DNA from: a virus
Virus record (IMG/VR): IMGVR_UViG_3300006754_000229
Coordinates: 1-21,442 of that record
Reading direction: 5' to 3' (one strand)
DNA length: 21,442 nt
This document shows, piece by piece, positions 2,028 to 21,442 of the stretch (the stretch's first letter is position 1; every line of letters starts with the position of its first letter). The notes beneath the pieces are model-generated. The model did no database searches. It was not told the origin of the DNA and worked only from the letters and a program-made list of their open reading frames with translations. The position numbers and the translations under genes are program-made.

Positions 2028-5000
2028 CTAGTTACTATCAACATATTCCCCTACCCCATCGAAATTTCTTGTTCCTTCATATGGACTAGCATTAACAGCG
2101 GGAGCAATCATATGTAAAAAAGTTGATGGTTTTAAACTATAATACATTGTTGATGAAACATCTTCCCAACTGTCTCCGTCAGTATCAACATCAAATTCTA
2201 TCTTATTTATCATGGTACCTAGTTTACTTCTCAAATTTCTTCCTAGTGTTCCCGCTAATGCATTTTTCATTTGGAAACATGGACATCTTTTATTACTGAA
2301 CTGATTATGACCGTAGAATATACGAGCAAACTGTTCTGCGGTTACTTTAGCGGGTGCACTTGCTATAGGTCCTAAGTTAATAGGGGTAATAGACCCTCCC
2401 ACCCATAGTGTGGTCGCTTCCGTAGTATTAGCAGTTCTTCTTAATTGTAAAAGTCCGTATTGAAAGGCAATATATAACATTAAGTCTTCTAAGGAGTCTT
2501 TTTGAGGGTGAGTAGCGTAGTCTCCACCACTTGAATCGTAAGTTCCCATTTTTGAACAATTGGCTATCAGAGCTATCCCTATACTATAGGCGTTTGCTCC
2601 ACGAGTATGTGCTCCTTGATACTTTGTTGGTCTAGCTTTTAAAATTGTTCCATTACCCGGACTACCACCTGTTCCTCTAGATATTAAATAATGGTACCCA
2701 ATACCAGAAAAATCTCTATTCTTATGTTGTTTGTCTATAGTTTCAACTGGTTTATTCCCATAATCGGTACCAGCTGTAACGTGTACAATAATAGATTTAA
2801 CATCCGATGGTCCACTAAACCGTGGTGCTTTTGCATTACCATCTGTATTTTGTTCCGTACCTTCAGGATGAAATCCTCCTTCTCTCTCTTGTTTATTATC
2901 TGTTTTTTGTTTAACTCTTACCTTCTTTACAAATGATTTTGCTAATTTAGCCACAAAATTCTCCACGTTTGGTAATCGGTGGAATGGTACCCTTACACCT
3001 GTAAATGTGGTAGTCATGGTATTTGGTTGTATCGAATGTTCAACTGTCATAATTAGGTATGGTCCCGTGAACATAGGTACATTTCTTAATGAAAAATACA
3101 TTGTGGGTTGGATACATACATTACCCATTGCGCTAACTTTACAAGTATAAGAACGAGTTCTGTATACATTAAATAAACTTAGTCCTTGGGTCGCGATAGT
3201 TTTATCATTTGCTGATTGTGCTAATTGTTCTTCAACCACAAAACTTTCCGCTGTTGGTTTGGTATCAGAAGTGTCTAAATTTACTCCTTTAAATATATTT
3301 TGATTATCTATACCGAAGTCTACCGCAAAAGACATTACTTTGTTACACCTCTTGGGGTCTGCACAATTAGAAAAAAGAGGGTTGTCTGCGGTTCTTCCCA
3401 TTAAAAATGAATCACTGTTATATCGATTTATGGGGTTTTTAACATCAGGTAATGAAGATGTTTCTCCTACATATTGACACACAAATTTAGGTGAAGACTC
3501 CAAATAATCTACTTCTAAATGGGTTCCAAATAAAGAATTAGCTTCGTCGGTGGTGTTGTATTTTGAGTATTCTTTACCGTCACTGGTTACCCCATAAAAA
3601 TTAATATACGACGGTAGGGGTAAAAAATTAAAATTCTGATTATCTAAAATAGAACCTATAAGACCTAATAAATTTAAACTTCCATTTGCTGGATTTGTTA
3701 ATGATTTAAAGGCGTCTAACCCTAGAATAGCGGTGTCCCCGATGTCCCTATTAGCTATATCTAAAAATAAAAAATCTTCAAATATAAGTTTTCTCTCTAT
3801 TTCTTCTCCAGAAATCCATTTATCATTTATTACTCTAAATGTATTGTATAAATCTAATTTTAACTCATCGCTTTGTATTGCACTTTCATCCTTAAAATCA
3901 TCTATAAGTCCTTCGTTTGGTATCTCGGGTAAATCTTGTTTTAAATTAAAGAATAGTTGATTTAGGTGTTGGTATTGTCCGTCATCTAACTTTTCCACTA
4001 TCTCATTTTTTATCTTCTGAATAAATTCACTATTAAAATTTGCGGGAGCTGCTACCGGAGTAAGGGCAGAAGCGACGGTGGTAAAATTAAGACTATTTGT
4101 GGTGGAACCATTTTTTATTCTTTCAGTAACATATATTTTAATAATTTTTCTAAGTAATTTAATATTCTCTGAAGTGAAATCAATATTCATTTCTCTAAAA
4201 AAGTCAGTTATCTCCGACCCATAATCACTGTACACTAAACTTAGATGTGAAGAATCTCCGATTTGTCCTATGTGTAATTGTAAGTCTTTCCATTCTTGTG
4301 GATGATTGAGTTGGGAGGTGGCAAATGGCACTTCTGGAGGTAAATTACCTTTATATTCTCCCCAATCATAATATTTCTGGTCTCCTACAAAAGTCCTTAA
4401 AGCTTTTATATTAATATCTTTTGGGTTATAGAAATTAAATGCGACGGTATCTGCCATAAACAACCCTAAAATTCTATTACTTTTATTAAGTTGTGTTTTT
4501 GCTAAATTATACCCAAATTCTGTAGCCGTATCTGCCGGTGTCACACTATCTTGACTTACTGTCATCATATTTCTTATAACCGATTGTAGAGTTTTTAAGT
4601 CGGTCTCACCTATTTTATTTCCCCACACATCTGTGGAGTCCTGTGAGTCAGTAGTTGCACTAAAAGCGTTTAAAGCGGGGTTAAAATCAACATCTTTCTG
4701 AGAAAAATTAAGAAAATATTCTTCAAATGTGTCTAATATTTCTGGTGAAAACACGTCAAATATCTCATCTATACTACTATAATCACCTAAAGAAGAAATA
4801 TGAAAAGCTCTTTGTTCTTTTTGTAGGTTATTAATTTTCTTACAATATTCGTTATATGAAGGTTTACTTGTTGGTGTATGTTCAAAATATCCATAATTAG
4901 ACATCCCCCAACAAAACCTCACATTACCATTATGTGTTGTAGGATTATTTGTTAAGTTAAATGGGTCTACTTCAAAACTGAGTTGTTCTTTTTTAATAGC

Positions 5001-8000
5001 ACCTCCCGGATATAAAATATATTGGGGTGTATATCCACTCGTAAAGACATCTCTACTGGTGTCATAATAAGTGTACCAAAACTGACAATTAACATCTCCT
5101 TGTGTTGGACTCTGTGCTGGGGATATATCTAAGTCTGTTGAGTGTTTGACATTTAGGGCACCAATGTTTATAAAATTATTTACCTCTATACTAGATAACG
5201 GCACACCTGTTACAGGTACTGAATTATAAAGTAGGTCTCCTGTAACAAAATAATGCATTAAATTATTTAATTCAGGATAGAACCCTACATTTATCTTTCT
5301 AAAATTACCCCCTATATTCCAATCCCCAGAAAATAGTATTTGGGTATTATTTTCACCAATATTCAATGAATATTGATTTATTAATCCTGAAGTATCGTTA
5401 AAATACTTGTTGGCGTCGAAATCCTTCCATACTGAATCTAGAATGTCTATCCCGTTCTCTATAAAATTCTTATATCTATGCCATATACTTCCATATTTTA
5501 AAATCCATGCGTACGGTAGGGGGTGTACTGCTGAAAGTTGGTTAAGGGTTGTAAAAACATAGTCACCAAATTCTGGCATTTGACCGCCCTCTTTTAATTG
5601 TTTAATTGTTAATTCTTTTAAACTTGCTAAAGGTAATGAATTTAAAAATAAATAAGAGGCACTAATGTATGGGTTAGGTGCACCGGTTAATTCGTTCATC
5701 ACACCTTCAATCATCGCGTTAGTAAAATAAGGTGTGTTTAGCATTGATGTTAATTGTTTGTCAAATGTCTTACCATTAATATATATTTCACTATAATCCA
5801 CCGCTCCTTCAGTTAAAAATAACCCATTATTAATAGATGTATTTTCTGGTGTTACAGGAGTATAGTAAGGTGTTTTTTCTCTTGTATTAATATCTTCAAA
5901 AAATAATTTCCAACTGAGTGATGTATTTAAAATATTAATTGTTCTTTTTTCCAGAATAGTAGAGTAGTCGTTAATCATGGTTGGTGTTGTCCACCATGCA
6001 TCACAAAAGAAGTGTGGTGGGGTTATACATATACTATCTTCTACTCCTTCAGCTGCACTTAATAAAGAAGTATAAGATTTAACATCACTACCATAAACCA
6101 AGGAATTACTTAATTTATTAAGTTCTTGTTTAGAAGGTAAATTGTGACCGTTAGCTAAGTTCATTTTTGTCCATGGACCATAAATGTATTCTCCTGTACT
6201 CCCATCTATGTCTTCTCCTTGTGTAAAATCAAAATCCACTAATGGGTAGGTGTCTAAGATGTTATCTTCTGCTGATTGGGTGAGTATAGATTCATTCATA
6301 GTCTCAATCTGATTCTGAATATCTATATCTCTTGACTGATATTGTGCTCCTACTAAAAGGGTGTATGGATAGATTTTAAATCTAGCATTATTAATTTTTT
6401 CTCTAATATATGGAGTAACATATTCGTCTCTTACAAGTAGCTGATAATCAGTAAGAGGAGCTATAGCTTTCAAATACTCCAGAAAACTATTATAACTCCA
6501 TGTTTGGTTTTTCAACAATTCTTGTAAATCAAAGAATCCGTTTGTTTTTTCCTGTATAGTAACTGATTCAAATTTTGATATATTTTTTAATAGTAAATCC
6601 GAAGTGTTTTTATTATATCTAAATTGTATTCCTGAAAAGAAACCGTGTATTGTGGACCTATCCCACACTTCATAACTAAAATCTACTTCACTTACTTTTA
6701 AATAACTTTGGGTTTCAAATACATCAAAAGATGTTGTGGGTACCCAATTCTCACCTAGTGTTGACACTCCGAAGTTAAATTGGTTTTGTCCAGTATCTTT
6801 AATAGTAGAAGCTTTAAGAAATTCTTCTACAAACTCTACTTCGGGCCACGACTCACTTTTATATGCTTTTGTACTAGATATAACTTTAATGGCTCCTGGA
6901 TATGTGGTAACAAAAGACGTTCCACCATCTTCATTTTCTTCTCTAACATAATAATGAGGCCACGGATAAATAAAATTATCTTCTGGTAATTCTGAGCTGG
7001 TAGACGCTTTACCGTTTCCTTTAACAGCGTTTAATCTATCAGGGTTATTTCTCTGATTCATTGCGTCTAAATGAACATCGTTCATAAGTCTCAAGAAAGT
7101 ATCTGCATTTGCGATAACTATACCAAATAAGTTTCTAACTGTAGGTCTAAACCCTAATCCTTGTTCACTTTCTATAACTTCGTTAACAACATCGGTTAGA
7201 TTTTTCTCTACAATCTGTCTTTTTTCGTTAAATTTAGTAAAAATATTGTTAATTTTAGTCTCAAATGAAGAAGGGACACCTTCAAACATAAACCACTCCA
7301 ACCCATTATTTTCTCTACCTTCTGGTGGTAAAACAGTGAAGTTTTGGTAACCGATGTCTACTGGAATAGAGTGTGTCCCACTTTTTCCGAATGTTGGGTT
7401 TTCTAATAGTGCCGCATTATGTTCACTAATCTCCTTTTTTAATTTATCCCTACCTGATTCTCTTTTTGGTAGGTCGTCTTGGTATGTTTTTTTCCAACTA
7501 TAATAAGTTAAATCCTTAATTTCATCATAATATTCATTAAGTCCACCGACATCCATATAGGTTCGTCTCCATCCACCACTATCCATTACTTTTGCTAGAT
7601 ACGAATCTAGAACCTTTTCATACTTATCGATATCATCTAACGCTTTTAAATTTTGTTTCTTTAATTCTTTTTCTATAGCTTCCTCTAAAGTTTTAGCTTT
7701 AGTTGCTAATTGCCTTAATGTTAAATGTGGTACATTAGGACCTAATAAATTATTTCTTTTATAGGTTACAAAAACTTCATTAAGTGTTTGATATCCTTTG
7801 GTGGTGGTGAATGTGTCTACATCATCATTCTCTACATTAGTTACCCCATAACTTCTGGCGTACATATAAGGAGCGTTAAGTAATTGTGACACATTTATAT
7901 CTGCGAGTAAGGCCGCTATTCTACCTATAAAATCACAAGTAACCGTATAATTACCGGTTTCGGGGTCAAAATTAGCGTTAAATTTTCTTAACATTAGTTG

Positions 8001-8612
8001 GTATTGGACCGCTTTTCCGTAATAACCTTTTAATGTTAAAAGAAATAATGGATATGGAAGATTAAAAAATACTGCATAAGCAGAATTATTTCCCATTTCA
8101 AATAAAGTTTTTCCTCTAACATCGATAAAGGTCATGCTTACTTGTGGAACATATGAACGGTCATAAGTTACACTAATGTTGGATATACCAAAAGATTCGT
8201 TATCTAATCTATTCTTTATGCTCTCAGTTTTATTCTCCGTATTACCCATAAAAGGGTCTTTCTTTGTGATGAATACCTTCTGATTATATGGTCCGTCTTG
8301 GTTGGACCCACCTGTTTCGGTGTCAGTCCAATCACTAGTCATATAGTCTTTTCCTCCTGGTTTTAAAAAGTTAATTTTACCTTCAAAAACATCAACTAAT
8401 GATTCGGTTTCCATTCCAGAACCAGTAATAACTTTACTTCTAGGCACTACTCTTGCCTGTAAATTAGCGTATATAGTTAAATTTTCTTGGCTTACAAGTC
8501 TGTCTTGCGGTTTACCGTTAACATCCACAACTTTGTTTGGGTCGAGAAGAACTACATTGTTTTCTGCTAGTTCGACAAGTAAGTTATCGTTATTATAAAT
8601 TTCATTCGCCAT
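2028..8612 (-). CDS. Giant baseplate hub-like protein with C-terminal N-acetylmuramoyl-L-alanine amidase
   Basis: A 2194-residue structural protein. Residues about 140-250 hold a conserved tail module (NLPYPLFLLTLKGYYGKAV, then FNANFDPETGNYTVTCDFIG). Residues about 1819-1880 (TRSYTCKVSAMGNVCIQP, FTGPYLIMTVEHSI, TTTFTGVRVP) look like the closing barrel of gp27/gpD-type hub proteins. After a charged linker (about 1890-1935) comes an Amidase_2/PGRP-type domain (about 1935-2120): IIVHVTAG, GIGYHYLI, GAHTRGANAYSIGIAL and GHNQFSNKRCPCF. The likely zinc ligands are H1944, H2102 and C2110; H and C are eight apart, as in T7 lysozyme (H122/C130). The domain should cut the bond between MurNAc and L-alanine in peptidoglycan during tail penetration. 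Most of residues 250-1800 I do not recognise. It lies just downstream of the LysM/gp53-like gene, as hub genes usually do. The amidase call is firm; the hub call is inference. Confidence 0.85.
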   Translation of the reverse strand: MANEIYNNDNLLVELAENNVVLLDPNKVVDVNGKPQDRLVSQENLTIYANLQARVVPRSKVITGSGMETESLVDVFEGKINFLKPGGKDYMTSDWTDTETGGSNQDGPYNQKVFITKKDPFMGNTENKTESIKNRLDNESFGISNISVTYDRSYVPQVSMTFIDVRGKTLFEMGNNSAYAVFFNLPYPLFLLTLKGYYGKAVQYQLMLRKFNANFDPETGNYTVTCDFIGRIAALLADINVSQLLNAPYMYARSYGVTNVENDDVDTFTTTKGYQTLNEVFVTYKRNNLLGPNVPHLTLRQLATKAKTLEEAIEKELKKQNLKALDDIDKYEKVLDSYLAKVMDSGGWRRTYMDVGGLNEYYDEIKDLTYYSWKKTYQDDLPKRESGRDKLKKEISEHNAALLENPTFGKSGTHSIPVDIGYQNFTVLPPEGRENNGLEWFMFEGVPSSFETKINNIFTKFNEKRQIVEKNLTDVVNEVIESEQGLGFRPTVRNLFGIVIANADTFLRLMNDVHLDAMNQRNNPDRLNAVKGNGKASTSSELPEDNFIYPWPHYYVREENEDGGTSFVTTYPGAIKVISSTKAYKSESWPEVEFVEEFLKASTIKDTGQNQFNFGVSTLGENWVPTTSFDVFETQSYLKVSEVDFSYEVWDRSTIHGFFSGIQFRYNKNTSDLLLKNISKFESVTIQEKTNGFFDLQELLKNQTWSYNSFLEYLKAIAPLTDYQLLVRDEYVTPYIREKINNARFKIYPYTLLVGAQYQSRDIDIQNQIETMNESILTQSAEDNILDTYPLVDFDFTQGEDIDGSTGEYIYGPWTKMNLANGHNLPSKQELNKLSNSLVYGSDVKSYTSLLSAAEGVEDSICITPPHFFCDAWWTTPTMINDYSTILEKRTINILNTSLSWKLFFEDINTREKTPYYTPVTPENTSINNGLFLTEGAVDYSEIYINGKTFDKQLTSMLNTPYFTNAMIEGVMNELTGAPNPYISASYLFLNSLPLASLKELTIKQLKEGGQMPEFGDYVFTTLNQLSAVHPLPYAWILKYGSIWHRYKNFIENGIDILDSVWKDFDANKYFNDTSGLINQYSLNIGENNTQILFSGDWNIGGNFRKINVGFYPELNNLMHYFVTGDLLYNSVPVTGVPLSSIEVNNFINIGALNVKHSTDLDISPAQSPTQGDVNCQFWYTYYDTSRDVFTSGYTPQYILYPGGAIKKEQLSFEVDPFNLTNNPTTHNGNVRFCWGMSNYGYFEHTPTSKPSYNEYCKKINNLQKEQRAFHISSLGDYSSIDEIFDVFSPEILDTFEEYFLNFSQKDVDFNPALNAFSATTDSQDSTDVWGNKIGETDLKTLQSVIRNMMTVSQDSVTPADTATEFGYNLAKTQLNKSNRILGLFMADTVAFNFYNPKDINIKALRTFVGDQKYYDWGEYKGNLPPEVPFATSQLNHPQEWKDLQLHIGQIGDSSHLSLVYSDYGSEITDFFREMNIDFTSENIKLLRKIIKIYVTERIKNGSTTNSLNFTTVASALTPVAAPANFNSEFIQKIKNEIVEKLDDGQYQHLNQLFFNLKQDLPEIPNEGLIDDFKDESAIQSDELKLDLYNTFRVINDKWISGEEIERKLIFEDFLFLDIANRDIGDTAILGLDAFKSLTNPANGSLNLLGLIGSILDNQNFNFLPLPSYINFYGVTSDGKEYSKYNTTDEANSLFGTHLEVDYLESSPKFVCQYVGETSSLPDVKNPINRYNSDSFLMGRTADNPLFSNCADPKRCNKVMSFAVDFGIDNQNIFKGVNLDTSDTKPTAESFVVEEQLAQSANDKTIATQGLSLFNVYRTRSYTCKVSAMGNVCIQPTMYFSLRNVPMFTGPYLIMTVEHSIQPNTMTTTFTGVRVPFHRLPNVENFVAKLAKSFVKKVRVKQKTDNKQEREGGFHPEGTEQNTDGNAKAPRFSGPSDVKSIIVHVTAGTDYGNKPVETIDKQHKNRDFSGIGYHYLISRGTGGSPGNGTILKARPTKYQGAHTRGANAYSIGIALIANCSKMGTYDSSGGDYATHPQKDSLEDLMLYIAFQYGLLQLRRTANTTEATTLWVGGSITPINLGPIASAPAKVTAEQFARIFYGHNQFSNKRCPCFQMKNALAGTLGRNLRSKLGTMINKIEFDVDTDGDSWEDVSSTMYYSLKPSTFLHMIAPAVNASPYEGTRNFDGVGEYVDSN

Positions 8613-17902: not shown

Positions 17903-17930
17903 TTAATATAAAGCATGCTTTATATAAAGC
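17885..17930. repeat. Alternating inverted repeats around the HAD gene stop
   Basis: The 10-mer ATGCTTTATA occurs at 17885-17894, inverted at 17907-17916, direct again at 17915-17924, and its first eight bases inverted at 17923-17930. Together they make two overlapping perfect palindromes: 20 bp at 17906-17925 and 14 bp at 17917-17930. They cover the last codons and stop of the HAD gene. No T-run follows, so a plain terminator is unlikely; an operator, an RNA processing site or a weak terminator is possible. Confidence 0.6.
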
Positions 17931-18562
17931 TTATTCTTTAGTTCTGGTGGTAAAATAGCTTTTAGTCTTCTCATCTCTTTAATATTCTTTAAATCATCAT
18001 CTATAAATAATATCTCGTCATACACCTCTAATAAGTCTTCCACTACTTCTACCTTTTTTTCATAGTCTGTTTCTCCCTTTAACCCAGTAACTCTACTTGT
18101 GTCATTTACAGCATATACATTTGCACGATTTAAATAATCTCCAATAGCTACCAATTCACCACCCTTATTTTTATACATCAACCAGTCCTTTAATCCTTTA
18201 TATACCATGTCTTCCGAAGACCTAGCAGTCAAGATGCCTAGTTGGTATCCTTTTGATAGTAGTTCATCCATTATTTGTAAGTTGGAGACAATCGGTTGTG
18301 CGTCTTCGATGGACCTTTTAATTTTTAAAGGGTCTAAAAAATCTCTATAATCATAATACCTTTTAGTTTCCTCAGTTACATCTTCTTTTGAGTATTCTGC
18401 TGGGGTTAATTTAATTTCTTTACTATCTGTTGGTAATTTTCGGTATATATAAATTTGGGATGGTTTTAATATAGTATCATCTACATCTAATAAAACTAGT
18501 TTATTAGTGTTATTATCCTCACTTAAGAGAGTTTTTATTCTATTTTTTACTCTATAACCCAT
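17903..18562 (-). CDS. HAD-superfamily phosphatase with N-terminal capsid-targeting-like peptide
   Basis: A 219-residue HAD hydrolase. Motif I is LVLLDVDDT (nucleophile D26, acid D28), motif II is GILTARS (T112), the motif III lysine is probably K169 or K170 (YEKKVEVV), and motif IV is ILFIDDD (D188-D190). The fold core should remove phosphate from a small molecule, a nucleotide or a polynucleotide end; the substrate cannot be read from the sequence. A cap-like insert lies between motifs I and II (about 35-95). The N-terminus, MGYRVKNRIKTLLSE, is basic and amphipathic and ends in L-x-E at residues 13-15, like its three neighbours, before the catalytic domain starts near 20. It is the third gene of the deoC operon (three-base gap), so a role in nucleoside or deoxyribose phosphate metabolism is reasonable. 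T4 Pnkp-like 3'-phosphatase is the main alternative. Confidence 0.75.
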   Translation of the reverse strand: MGYRVKNRIKTLLSEDNNTNKLVLLDVDDTILKPSQIYIYRKLPTDSKEIKLTPAEYSKEDVTEETKRYYDYRDFLDPLKIKRSIEDAQPIVSNLQIMDELLSKGYQLGILTARSSEDMVYKGLKDWLMYKNKGGELVAIGDYLNRANVYAVNDTSRVTGLKGETDYEKKVEVVEDLLEVYDEILFIDDDLKNIKEMRRLKAILPPELKNKLYIKHALY

Positions 18563-18565
18563 TTA

Positions 18566-19450
18566 TTACTTAAAGTGACTTAAAAAGGGCCATAACTCAT
18601 CCTCCTGTAAAATCTTAGTTACTGAGGGCATCATCCATGGAGATATATTAGATATTTTCATTCCATTGGTTAACCATATGAATACTTGAGAGTTTTTTAA
18701 TGCACTTACTTGTGCTTCACCAAATGTACCAGCTCCAGCTGTCCCGTCAAAATTTATAAGATTGGTGTCACAAATTTTTAACATATATAAATCCTGTACT
18801 ACAATCTGGTCTCTTATTTTTTCTCTAAAAGTTTTAAACTGTTCATCGTCTAATTTATTATCTTTCCATGCTTTAAATAAGGTTTGGAATTCTTCATCTT
18901 CATCTCTTACTGTTTCAGCTCTCAGCGGGTTAAGAATAGCCGGCAATTCAAGGCCTTTAAAGTCCATAGTACCACTTGTTACCAAATCAAAAAGTCTTTC
19001 TCCCTTAACCACATGGTCGGAACCAAAAAAGTTTTCTACTTGAGTTCTCCACGACAATGCGTCCGTAGCAAAGTCTATCCCACCGCCTAAATATATCGCT
19101 CTAGGTGTAAAAATTCCTTGCATGTCATTAGGGTCTAACACATTTAACATCTTAATAGTGTCCTTCATCTCTTCTGCACTTGCATTTATTAAAAAATTAG
19201 AGGCTTTATCCGTTAAAAATCTTTTAAACCATTTGCTTATTTGACTAAAGATTCCTCCAGAAGCTTTTAATTCAGGTATACCACCATACTCGATTTCAGA
19301 TAATTCGACCTGTTCATTAGAAGATACCAAAGTTTCTAGATTATTTTTCAATTGAGCCCTTACATCGTAAGGCAAAGAATATAGTTCATCATATACCGAT
19401 ACTTGGTCGTCTTTATATTCTTTTAAAAGTTTTTTAATTCTATTTTTCAT
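18566..19450 (-). CDS. Nucleoside 2-deoxyribosyltransferase-like protein with N-terminal capsid-targeting-like peptide
   Basis: A 294-residue protein. The second half matches the nucleoside 2-deoxyribosyltransferase pattern: AIYLGGGIDFATDALSWRTQ (118-137) for the first strand, NPLR (174-177), RDQIVVQDLYMLKICDTNLI (213-232), then GTAGAGTFGEAQVSA (236-250) with E245 where the catalytic Glu normally stands, and FIWL for the next strand. The family moves deoxyribose between bases or hydrolyses the N-glycosidic bond of deoxynucleosides. Residues about 15-115 are an extra N-terminal region I do not recognise, with a helical SKWFKRFLTDKASNFLIN segment. The first residues, MKNRIKKLLKE, form a basic amphipathic helix ending in L-x-E (9-11). 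The ATG shares one base with the deoC stop (TAATG), so translation is coupled. Acting next to DeoC, it could feed deoxyribose from host nucleosides. The exact reaction is not certain. Confidence 0.7.
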   Translation of the reverse strand: MKNRIKKLLKEYKDDQVSVYDELYSLPYDVRAQLKNNLETLVSSNEQVELSEIEYGGIPELKASGGIFSQISKWFKRFLTDKASNFLINASAEEMKDTIKMLNVLDPNDMQGIFTPRAIYLGGGIDFATDALSWRTQVENFFGSDHVVKGERLFDLVTSGTMDFKGLELPAILNPLRAETVRDEDEEFQTLFKAWKDNKLDDEQFKTFREKIRDQIVVQDLYMLKICDTNLINFDGTAGAGTFGEAQVSALKNSQVFIWLTNGMKISNISPWMMPSVTKILQEDELWPFLSHFK

Positions 19451-20262
19451 TAGTATTCTAAATTATCTATTTTATTACCCTTCACAATGTCTTTTGCTGA
19501 GGAAGTGCCCAATCTAGTTGCTCCCGCGTCCAACATTTTTTCTGCATCTTCCTTACTATAAATACCTCCAGATGCTTTAACTTGGAGTGGCCCAGAATTA
19601 GACTTCATAATACTTACTGCTTCCGGAGTAGCTCCTATTGGTCTGTCGTCATCCGCTTGATAAAATCCTGTAGATGTTTTAACAAAAACATTACGAGCTT
19701 TTTCAGGACCAACAGTTTCTACAACTATTTTACTAATTAATCCTGTAAGTTCAGCAATTTCTTCAGGAGATAAAGCTGCCGATTCTATAATCCACTTAAC
19801 CGTTTTTCCTTTATCTATTCCTATAGCTGTCCCTTCACTAACTTCCTTCATAACCTTATCTAGATTACCACTCTTAAAAGCATTATAATCTACCACAAAA
19901 TCTAGTTCATCGACCCCATGTTGAATTGCTTTTAGAGCTTCATCCATTTTAACTCCATGTTCACTATTACCATGTGGAAAACCTATAACCGTACCAACTA
20001 ATACTCTTCCGGGATAACCTTTTTTATCTATTAACATTCTTGCGTTTGCAACATATTCGGGCCTTAACATAACTAATTTCATGTCATGTTCTATTGCATC
20101 TTTAATTGTGTCGAAAACTATTCTATCAGTTTCAAACTCATCTACGCCAGCTTGTTCGGGTGTTTTTAAATATGTGGAATCTATATAACGGGATAAATTA
20201 ACATCATCTTGTTCTTTTATCAGCATTAAATCTTTTATTCTATTTATTTGTTCAGATAACAT
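19450..20262 (-). CDS. deoC: Deoxyribose-phosphate aldolase
   Basis: A 270-residue class I aldolase that splits 2-deoxyribose 5-phosphate into glyceraldehyde 3-phosphate and acetaldehyde through a Schiff base. The catalytic set is complete: D28 in YIDSTYLKT, D121 in ELDFVVDYN, Schiff-base K195 in VFVKTSTGF and K229 in VKASGGI; the last two are 34 apart, as in E. coli (K167/K201). GTVIGFPHG (90-98) and TRLGTSS (249-255) are also typical. The core begins near residue 22; before it is an extra peptide, MLSEQINRIKDLMLIKE, ending in I-x-E at 15-17 and absent from cellular enzymes as far as I know. It is first in a three-gene operon (deoC, deoxyribosyltransferase-like, HAD). DeoC is known in some marine phages as an auxiliary enzyme for recycling host nucleosides. 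The leader has a TATTTATA element and no Shine-Dalgarno. Confidence 0.93.
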   Translation of the reverse strand: MLSEQINRIKDLMLIKEQDDVNLSRYIDSTYLKTPEQAGVDEFETDRIVFDTIKDAIEHDMKLVMLRPEYVANARMLIDKKGYPGRVLVGTVIGFPHGNSEHGVKMDEALKAIQHGVDELDFVVDYNAFKSGNLDKVMKEVSEGTAIGIDKGKTVKWIIESAALSPEEIAELTGLISKIVVETVGPEKARNVFVKTSTGFYQADDDRPIGATPEAVSIMKSNSGPLQVKASGGIYSKEDAEKMLDAGATRLGTSSAKDIVKGNKIDNLEY

Positions 20263-20274
20263 AGGTTACTTGTT

Positions 20275-20294
20275 TATTTATAAATATATTTATA
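20275..20294. promoter_or_regulatory. Bidirectional AT-rich control region between deoC and the kinase gene
   Basis: The 36-base gap (20263-20298) is the only divergent junction. It has the perfect 12-bp palindrome TATTTATAAATA (20275-20286), giving one TATTTATA octamer facing each gene: 20275-20282, 16 bases before the kinase ATG, and 20279-20286, 16 bases before the deoC ATG. A further copy at 20287-20294 (TATTTATAGTAT) abuts the kinase start. The equal spacing on both sides supports a shared promoter. Confidence 0.5.
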
Positions 20295-20298
20295 GTAT

Positions 20299-20952
20299 AT
20301 GAAAAATTTAATAAAAAACATATTAAGGGAAGAGTTATTATATGAGGAAAAAGTGATTAGTTTTAATAACCCTAGTAATAACTTCGTTGTGATAGCGGGA
20401 GGCCCTGGAGCTGGTAAAAGTTTTATAACTAGAAACTTAATTAATTTAGATAATGTAAAAGAATTTAATGTTGACCAGGTTAGGGTTATGACAGCTAAAA
20501 AATTATGGGGTGATGACTGGGTAGAGATGATATCTACACCAGAAGGGTATCAAAAAATATTAGATATGACCTATACAACCTCTGACCCTAAAAATTTGAC
20601 TGTTAAATTTTTAAAACAATTTCTACAATCAGAACGAAATCAACCAGTTAATGTAGTTTACGATGCGGGTGGAGGACAAGAACAGGTGATGAAGGATGTG
20701 TGGAATATAGCAAAAGAAAATGGGTTTAACACTACACTAGTATATGTTAGAACACCATTAGAATTAGCTCAATTACGAAATACTGAAAGACCTAGAAGTT
20801 TACCCCCTGAAATGGTTGGCCAATACCACCAACAAGTTAAGGATAATATGAGAAATATGTTTCCTTTATTTGATGATGTATGGACGGTAGATAATAAAGA
20901 GTTGATTGATTTATCCGATAGACCATCTGAAAATATAGAAAAAATTAAGTAA
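20299..20952 (+). CDS. P-loop kinase (zeta-toxin/polynucleotide-kinase-like) with N-terminal capsid-targeting-like peptide
   Basis: A 217-residue P-loop phosphotransferase. Walker A is GGPGAGKS (34-41, K40). Then come a conserved FNVDQVR (a D on the second strand), VVYDAGGG (Walker B-like), LVYVRTPLELAQLRNTERPR with the Arg-rich lid pattern, and SLPPEMVGQYHQQV. This is the zeta-toxin/AAA_33-type kinase layout; such proteins phosphorylate nucleotides, UDP-sugars or polynucleotide ends, and the acceptor cannot be told here. The first residues, MKNLIKNILRE, end in L-x-E (9-11) and are very like the start of the deoxyribosyltransferase-like protein, although this gene lies on the opposite strand. 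It is the only plus-strand gene; its stop overlaps the HAD gene stop by eight bases (20945-20952), tail to tail. A true toxin is unlikely, as no antitoxin gene is next to it; a kinase-phosphatase pair with the HAD gene is an alternative. Confidence 0.75.
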   Translation: MKNLIKNILREELLYEEKVISFNNPSNNFVVIAGGPGAGKSFITRNLINLDNVKEFNVDQVRVMTAKKLWGDDWVEMISTPEGYQKILDMTYTTSDPKNLTVKFLKQFLQSERNQPVNVVYDAGGGQEQVMKDVWNIAKENGFNTTLVYVRTPLELAQLRNTERPRSLPPEMVGQYHQQVKDNMRNMFPLFDDVWTVDNKELIDLSDRPSENIEKIK

Positions 20953-21385
20953 TTACCTTATTAACCTTAAGTTTAATGTGTGGATATTTTTTACACGATT
21001 CTTTCACATCTTTAATGTGTTTGTCCTTATCCTCCCAATACTCTATTTCAGTTGTTTGTGGGTATTTTTCTAACAGTTTCTCTACCCTTCTACCTTTGGA
21101 CCTATTTCCTGTTTTTCCTTTTATATACAAGTTTTCATCAAACGTAAGTTTCTTCGACTCAAGTATAGAATTAACATAAGGTTTAACTTTATCTATTCTA
21201 TTAGTTAACAAAACCGTAACAATAGAATTTCCTGTAGATTCGTGATTATATTGTTGAATTGTGTTATTATTAAATTTAAAATCCCATTTATCGGAATCTA
21301 AACTTTCGGGGGTGTCAAGATAGGAACTATCTTCATAAGGTGTTTTGACTAAGGTATTGTCAAAATCGAACATTGCTAATTTCAT
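20945..21385 (-). CDS. HAD phosphatase, SAK RNA-repair-associated type
   Basis: The protein from the ATG at 21383-21385 is 146 residues; the frame is open further to an ATG at 21418, but that start would swallow the promoter-like box and adds 11 residues before the HAD core. Motif I is MFDFDNTLV (D7, D9), motif II VTVLLTNR (T61), a lysine follows in NRSKGRRVEKLL, and motif IV is IEYWEDKDKHIKD (E118, D119). The short length, LLTNR (LLTGR in relatives), LTFDENLYIK and the E-D-K-D-x-H ending match the HAD domain called Swiss Army Knife RNA repair-like (HAD_SAK_1). These are thought to dephosphorylate nucleic acid ends or nucleotides. It faces the P-loop kinase tail to tail, suggesting a joint end-healing role like T4 Pnkp, split over two genes (inference). 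It has no capsid-targeting-like peptide. Confidence 0.72.
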   Translation of the reverse strand: MKLAMFDFDNTLVKTPYEDSSYLDTPESLDSDKWDFKFNNNTIQQYNHESTGNSIVTVLLTNRIDKVKPYVNSILESKKLTFDENLYIKGKTGNRSKGRRVEKLLEKYPQTTEIEYWEDKDKHIKDVKESCKKYPHIKLKVNKVIT

Positions 21386-21407
21386 ATAGTAATTTTTAAA
21401 TTCAATA

Positions 21408-21415
21408 CAAAGATA
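21408..21415 (-). promoter_or_regulatory. Bacteroidota-type -7 box (TATCTTTG) upstream of the SAK-type HAD gene
   Basis: On the minus strand TATCTTTG fits the TAnnTTTG consensus of the Bacteroidota housekeeping sigma factor, 22 bases before the ATG at 21385, a normal distance. The upstream partner (a TTTG-like -33 box) is not clear; only TATATGG is near the right place. It supports early transcription by host polymerase and the start at 21385. Confidence 0.45.
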
Positions 21416-21442
21416 CATAAAAAATTCTAAATAACCATATAA

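Follow-up and report, generated by a model that had tools for sequence, protein, structure and literature searches.

Why should four neighbouring enzymes of unrelated families, encoded on both strands of a viral DNA, begin with the same kind of short basic peptide? The question is raised by the IMG/VR record IMGVR_UViG_3300006754_000229, the whole of which (21,442 bp) is the window analysed here. Its content is that of a T4-like myovirus: a gp32-like single-stranded DNA-binding protein, minus-strand baseplate, tape-measure-like and tail tube genes, and then a cassette that encodes a HAD phosphatase, a nucleoside deoxyribosyltransferase-like protein (hereafter the transferase-like protein), a deoxyribose-phosphate aldolase (DeoC) and a P-loop kinase (Table 1). 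A preliminary description of this DNA proposed that the four enzymes are loaded into the phage head by their leaders, trimmed and ejected into the host. The occurrence of the leader on four unrelated enzymes is real. We infer, with good confidence, that it acts as a T4-type capsid-targeting sequence (CTS), by which a broad enzyme cargo would be loaded into the head.

Conservation of the leader

The listing of open reading frames (ORFs) gives all four leader peptides exactly where the preliminary description placed them, and none of the four tagged ORFs has an earlier start codon available between the preceding stop and its own start. Among orthologues with intact N-termini, a leader ending in [LIFM]-x-E is present in 13/13 HAD, 13/13 transferase-like, 13/13 kinase and 12/12 DeoC proteins; these counts include several near-duplicate contigs and correspond to about eight distinct lineages. 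When the transferase-like proteins are aligned, E11 is the one position of the first 19 that never varies. The SAK-type HAD gene lacks the peptide, as had been claimed, and so do its orthologues (0/11).

A regular expression for the short tag matches 45/1121 N-termini (20 families) versus 21/5407 internal methionine positions (p = 4e-20), and one for the long tag described below matches 7/1121 versus 0/5085. At the internal-methionine rate, the probability of finding at least three tagged genes among the 15 of the window is 2.6e-5. The cassette is flanked by the genes for tail sheath and tail tube, in the order gp19, HAD, transferase-like protein, DeoC, then, divergently, variable genes and kinase, followed by SAK-HAD, up to gp18. 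This order is kept in about eight lineages, as seen in related contigs that were fetched whole. In sister phages, further families occupy the interval from DeoC to the kinase, and all of them are tagged; they comprise superoxide dismutase (SOD), a DUF5872-like protein and the families f203, f314 and f333.

A movable leader in many phage families

IMG/VR was scanned with degenerate codons encoding MK.[L/I/V/M/F]IK.I[L/F].E, and with a codon-permuted pattern as the control; the tag pattern was found in at least 119 stretches, versus 77 for the control. Among the matches listed, 113/139 lie at gene starts, versus 12/77 for the permuted pattern, and loci with two or three tagged genes number 16 versus 0. 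The tag is carried in these listed matches by 117 proteins. They belong to at least 53 unrelated families, among which are Fe/Mn SOD, Nudix, GNAT, HAD and AAA_33 kinases, one of the kinases being fused to a tRNA-ligase-type phosphodiesterase. More proteins with such a start, for which the preliminary description advised a search, are thus found, and some of the tagged genes lie far from tail genes.

A second, longer leader has the same ending motif. It reads MKKIKLTEETLVRIVGRVIKE, or MKKQILSEQFKRMQFLAGIITE in the immuto phage and MLSEQINRIKDLMLIKE in DeoC of the window. Immuto phages were the only cultured phages found by tblastn with the long leader, and tblastn with another leader of the long type gave no match. 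In Flavobacterium phage immuto_2-6A (laboratory host Flavobacterium sp. LMO8), proteins with the leaders are encoded at 111675-112139, 25061-25456 and 111184-111654, among other places. The leaders are also exchanged on one and the same protein. The kinase starts with MKNLIKNILRE in most phages and with MLLKEIEKIKRLMFVE in the relatives G004 and G005, and the leader of the DUF5872-like protein differs between G003 and G006, being MKNIIKKILRE or MKIRLTESQVKKLMMF...LDE. At 77461-84303 of G011 (IMGVR_UViG_3300025099_003636), long leaders (MKKIKLTEETLVRIVGRVIKE, MAKKVTLTESELIKMIQQIVKE, MKKISLTEAELTKIIQKVIKE) are found on a series of adjacent genes, a presumed island of head-loaded proteins.

In alignments, the cellular DeoC and SOD proteins begin to match their phage counterparts only at residues 20-21 of the latter, the extension being absent; the occurrence of the same extension in cellular homologues, which the preliminary description named as an argument against its reading, is therefore not seen for these two enzymes. 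In bacterial and archaeal genomes, 22/121 pattern matches lie at gene starts, similar to the control level (12/77), and at least three of the 22 look viral because they share protein families with the viral matches. As far as sequences can tell, the leader is modular and phage-specific. A literature search, with subscription papers outside its reach, returned no papers describing such leaders in environmental phages.

Relation to the T4 head system

In T4, the leaders of the internal proteins (IPs), 10-19 residues long, target proteins to the core, and the protease gp21 cuts after L/I-X-E with few other requirements (PMC9026906). The leaders of gp24 (MAKINELLRE) and IPII/III (MKTYQEFIAE) have hydrophobic residues at -6, -3 and -2 from E, a spacing shared by the short tags. 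The T4 CTSs (IPI, IPII, IPIII, Alt and gp24 propeptides) are similar to the present leaders in being short, N-terminal, [L/I]-x-E-ending peptides on mutually unrelated proteins of phages with gp21, gp22 and gp23, and that of gp24 is nearly the same peptide. They differ in that the T4 cargo consists of small anti-restriction proteins, whereas most of the present cargo can be recognised as enzymes (DeoC, SOD, kinases, Nudix, GNAT), two or more leader types are interchanged here, and E frequently follows the cut.

A search for a gp21-type protease and for the same cut motif in the capsid protein had been suggested, and both are found in the relatives of the window. The gp21 (S77) protease is present in G003 and G011, and its family (PF03420) in 17/44 tagged contigs versus 2/36 control contigs (p = 4e-4). 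Sixteen tagged contigs reach 100 kb or more, and the nine of them with an intact gp23 match all have gp21. [LIV]-x-E occupies the column of T4 E65 in 21/21 gp23 proteins from relatives, with the immuto, Mel-JY01 and RM378 phages among them, and the RM378 site reads LME. The values for [LI]xE are 1.32 in the scaffold protein gp22, a small excess over the proteome (1.18), 1.62 in gp23 and 2.15 in a portal-neighbour protein, and serve as background only. Fragmentary gp23 matches over short frames occur in G037, G045 and the second locus of G018, as if the capsid gene were interrupted or decayed.

Leaders similar to those of the T4 IPs are observed in more distant phages. In the 735-kb phage LR756501, the transferase-like protein starts with MKNFTRFINE and DeoC with MVKNFDKFVRE, and the ORF adjoining the transferase-like gene, HAD-like by its DxD motif and position rather than by search, has the leader MKKLSNIKNFELFLNE. 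Three 50-kb stretches of this genome, two of which were picked for holding the homologues, have such leaders on 8/222 genes, versus 1/663 internal methionine positions. In T4-like phages of Aeromonas, Methylophilales and Pelagibacter, all of which have gp21, the homologues of the kinase possess short starts ending in x-E (MKMKFSEFVQLEE, MKTFAELQE and MIPFILKE).

These comparisons are consistent with the following course of events. The tagged enzymes would be made together with the head proteins late in infection, and each would be built into the head through binding of its basic amphipathic leader to the prohead's scaffold core. A gp21-type protease would most likely cut after [L/I]-x-E and free the enzyme, which would stay in the head with the DNA and be ejected into the next host. 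The kinase, the HAD phosphatase, the transferase-like protein and DeoC would be the cargo contributed by the window. Core binding, packaging, cleavage and ejection are steps that we infer; the modularity of the leader and its links to gp21 and the putative late promoter are read from the DNA.

Other systems offer partial parallels. T-even Ip1-Ip3, injected GmrSD inhibitors, are likewise unrelated proteins at variable gene sites with only the packaging leader in common, and the window proteins differ from them in having enzyme folds and no known anti-restriction role (PMC12373910). Many head proteins of phiKZ-like phages, including enzymes, are cleaved after x-x-E and ejected as inner-body or ejection proteins, the cleavage motif being S/A-x-E and the protease branch and propeptides differing (PMC9026906). 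The polyvalent proteins of tailed phages, cited in PMC7824862, are likewise injected and bring enzymatic domains, including GNAT and nucleotide-acting enzymes; they are giant multidomain proteins, in contrast to the single enzymes here, each with its own leader.

Evidence against loading and trimming

Several observations weigh against this interpretation. The window has neither gp21 nor gp23, being too short to contain either, and gp21 in LR756501 is a match below the cut-off only. Seven of the 16 long tagged contigs lack both an intact gp23 and gp21, two of them keeping fragmentary gp23 matches; these seven contigs are probably incomplete. When only contigs of at least 100 kb are compared, gp21 is found in 9/16 tagged versus 2/9 control contigs (p = 0.11). 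Because this comparison is not significant, shared T4-like ancestry rather than function may carry part of the association with gp21. The residue after the tag raises a further objection. Across 53 families it is E in 24, S in 8, N in 4, Q and T in 3 each, D and G in 2 each and A in 1, whereas at the 21 gp23 sites it is A, S, T or Q and never E. A small residue (A/S/G) follows the cut in the T4 IPs, gp22, gp23 and gp24, as read from the T4 sequences; in the window the leaders are followed by E, Q, Y and D instead.

We do not treat the small residue as defining, since the motif given in the literature has few other requirements. The E after the tag is nevertheless unlike the capsid site, and cleavage is therefore less certain than targeting. 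Cleavage at the leader bond may be poor or absent, the leader serving mainly for targeting; alternatively, the protease may accept E after the cut. In the T4 IP leader, residues 4 and 7 matter for targeting and residues 8 and 10 for processing, and Asp at position 10 stops processing while targeting is unaffected, so that the two are separable (PMC9026906). An overlapping variant of the favoured explanation, in which the leader serves to package the enzymes and gp21 makes no cut at its end, the conserved E being part of the scaffold-binding face, draws on this separability and on the frequent E directly after the supposed cut. It sits less well with the few other requirements of gp21 and with the residue two before E, T4's processing residue, which is kept as L/I/V. 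We regard the variant as possible, though rather unlikely.

The trimming part of the preliminary description is thus upheld incompletely: the motif at the leader end, the capsid motif and the presence of gp21 in relatives speak for it, and the E that follows in so many families speaks against it. We lean by a modest degree towards gp21 trimming exactly at the leader E. Loading into the head is well supported, albeit indirectly, because the checks that could be computed came out in its favour, namely the spread of the leader, gp21, the gp23 motif and the absence from cellular homologues.

Alternative explanations

Sorting to a site other than the head, such as the host membrane, the replication compartment or the lumen of the tail tube, would suit a basic amphipathic helix, which could bind a membrane, and a cassette located between tail sheath and tail tube genes; N-terminal signals do direct proteins into the tail lumen in contractile injection systems. 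Yet the gp21 motif ends the leader in every orthologue, the leader is associated with gp21 and resembles the head CTSs of T4, and some tagged genes are remote from those of the tail, which makes such sorting improbable. The helix and its ending are also similar to encapsulation peptides for a protein shell such as the bacterial microcompartment. DeoC itself is known from microcompartments, and peptides of the PduP/PduD type look alike. Most of the cargo families (SOD, Nudix, GNAT, kinases, HAD) have no microcompartment link, and the association is with gp21/gp23 phages; we consider this origin very improbable.

Bias in translation or composition would be another source of the shared starts, AT-rich genomes favouring Lys, Asn and Ile codons after the start. 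The genomes have 32-34% GC, and AAA/AAT-rich codons stand at many starts. This explanation was rejected on the scan of bacterial genomes and the codon-permuted control, and is hardly credible: cellular matches mark gene starts only at the control rate given above, the permuted pattern produces no gene-start excess, the leader varies at its other positions but keeps the terminal E and the second residue before it, and the quite different long leader has the same ending motif.

A putative late promoter

A GATATTTATA motif is located 10-40 bases upstream of the terminase (terL), sheath, tube, hub, gp21 and gp22 genes in relatives, and is probably a late promoter because of this position upstream of structural genes. 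The GATATTTATAA motif precedes structural genes, likewise by 10-40 bases, in G003, G004, G011 and the immuto phage. The 9-base core ATATTTATA, two copies of which overlap divergently in the window (Table 1), is about 17-30 fold enriched upstream of genes relative to the genome average, and the core TATTTAT is present within 60 bases upstream of 61/139 listed tag matches versus 1/77 controls. The GATATTTATAA motif reads opposite to T4's TATAAATA.

Identity and possible roles of the cargo

The assignment of DeoC is secure, with a TIGR00126 score of 138.1 bits (cut-off 117.3) and Schiff-base lysine motifs, KTSTGF and KASGGI, that align to solved enzymes. The transferase-like protein gives only sub-threshold matches to PF15891/PF05014 (E 0.04-0.13) and has the motifs YLGGGIDFA and AGAGTFGEAQ. 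Its AlphaFold2 models, with predicted local distance difference test (pLDDT) values of 37 (single sequence) and 48 (7 sequences), were too poor for a fold search, and PDB sequence searches with it gave nothing meaningful. One possibility for this protein is a deoxynucleotide hydrolase whose product would feed DeoC. Domain matches suggest that the kinase and the HAD phosphatase resemble nucleic-acid end-processing enzymes.

The gp19-gp18 site of sister phages holds extra cargo, including SOD, whose two domains both exceed the cut-off (PF02777 7e-40, PF00081 1e-13), and the protein YDVWPSAYASGA..KCR, which we take to be DUF5872-like. The latter protein is encoded in G002, G003 and G006 and at 111184-111654 of the cultured immuto phage. 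Of the enzyme kit in the preliminary description, the kinase, DeoC and HAD members are supported by their domains, the deoxyribosyltransferase is a weak assignment, and the kit is larger than proposed, with SOD, the DUF5872-like protein, Nudix and GNAT among the additions. After entry the cargo might remove deoxynucleotides or deoxyribose phosphate, repair ends or RNA, or protect against superoxide; any specific role, including the action on host nucleosides and nucleic acid ends put forward in the preliminary description, is a guess, and a tentative one.

Since the leader recurs on unrelated phage proteins and resembles the T4 loading signal, these phages probably carry a ready-made enzyme kit. 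On balance we favour a wider proposal, in which one modular code for head loading is used both by T4-like phages (those relatives that are in culture infect Bacteroidetes) and by some huge phages. Several interchangeable leader types would sit on dozens of enzyme families, and the virion would deliver a working kit for metabolism and repair ahead of all phage gene expression. The kit would cover deoxyribose-phosphate removal, superoxide dismutation, nucleotide and RNA-end processing, and acetylation. If this is true, many so-called auxiliary metabolic genes encode virion proteins, DeoC and SOD act at the first moments of infection instead of being expressed as such genes, and dozens of unknown phage genes become candidate early effectors. 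Head-packaged, injected proteins would then be recognisable from metagenomic DNA by a short readable signal, and the long-standing question of what T4-like virions inject would become testable in a cultured phage.

Table 1. Positions of the cassette genes, leaders and promoter motifs in the window
Feature	Position	Strand	Basis or remark
HAD phosphatase	17903..18562	-	DUF2608; PHROG 415 polynucleotide kinase/phosphatase-like
HAD leader peptide MGYRVKNRIKTLLSE, then DNNT	18518..18562	-	ORF start and orthologues
Nucleoside deoxyribosyltransferase-like protein, weak assignment	18566..19450	-	motif order and sub-threshold Pfam
Transferase-like leader MKNRIKKLLKE, then YKDD	19418..19450	-	ORF start and alignment
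Deoxyribose-phosphate aldolase DeoC	19450..20262	-	TIGR00126; KTSTGF and KASGGI motifs kept
DeoC leader MLSEQINRIKDLMLIKE (long type), then QDDV	20212..20262	-	resembles immuto phage MKKQILSEQFKRMQ..GIITE
Divergent, overlapping ATATTTATA motifs in the 36-bp DeoC-kinase gap	20279..20294	.	probable late promoters
ATATTTATA copy for DeoC operon	20279-20287	-	
ATATTTATA copy for kinase	20286-20294	+	
AAA_33 / Zeta-toxin-like P-loop kinase (PSTK/PNK-like)	20299..20952	+	domain matches
Kinase leader MKNLIKNILRE, predicted cut after E11, then ELLY	20299..20331	+	ORF start and orthologues
SAK-type HAD gene of the same cassette, without leader (internal negative control)	20945..21418	-	domain match; orthologues

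Other observations

The tagged protein at 2527-3069 of locus L139 is a candidate injected anti-defence enzyme, with weak matches to Acb1, below the Pfam cut-off, and to 2',3'-cyclic phosphodiesterase. We do not claim it as Acb1 directed against the cyclic-oligonucleotide-based antiphage signalling system (CBASS), as the match is below the cut-off and a 2',3'-cyclic phosphodiesterase is equally possible. In the window, an acidic protein at 942-1772 has GGDEGGEEELDMDVEGG-type repeats and the start MNIENQISE|ELKRY; its relatives start with MGVNKLIQE or MSRKKNIESILSE, and it is perhaps another tagged or core protein. The 2194-residue protein of the tail/baseplate region at 2028-8612 is PGRP/amidase-like in its C-terminal part (SIIVHVTAG...IGYHYLISRG), perhaps a peptidoglycan enzyme of the tail tip.

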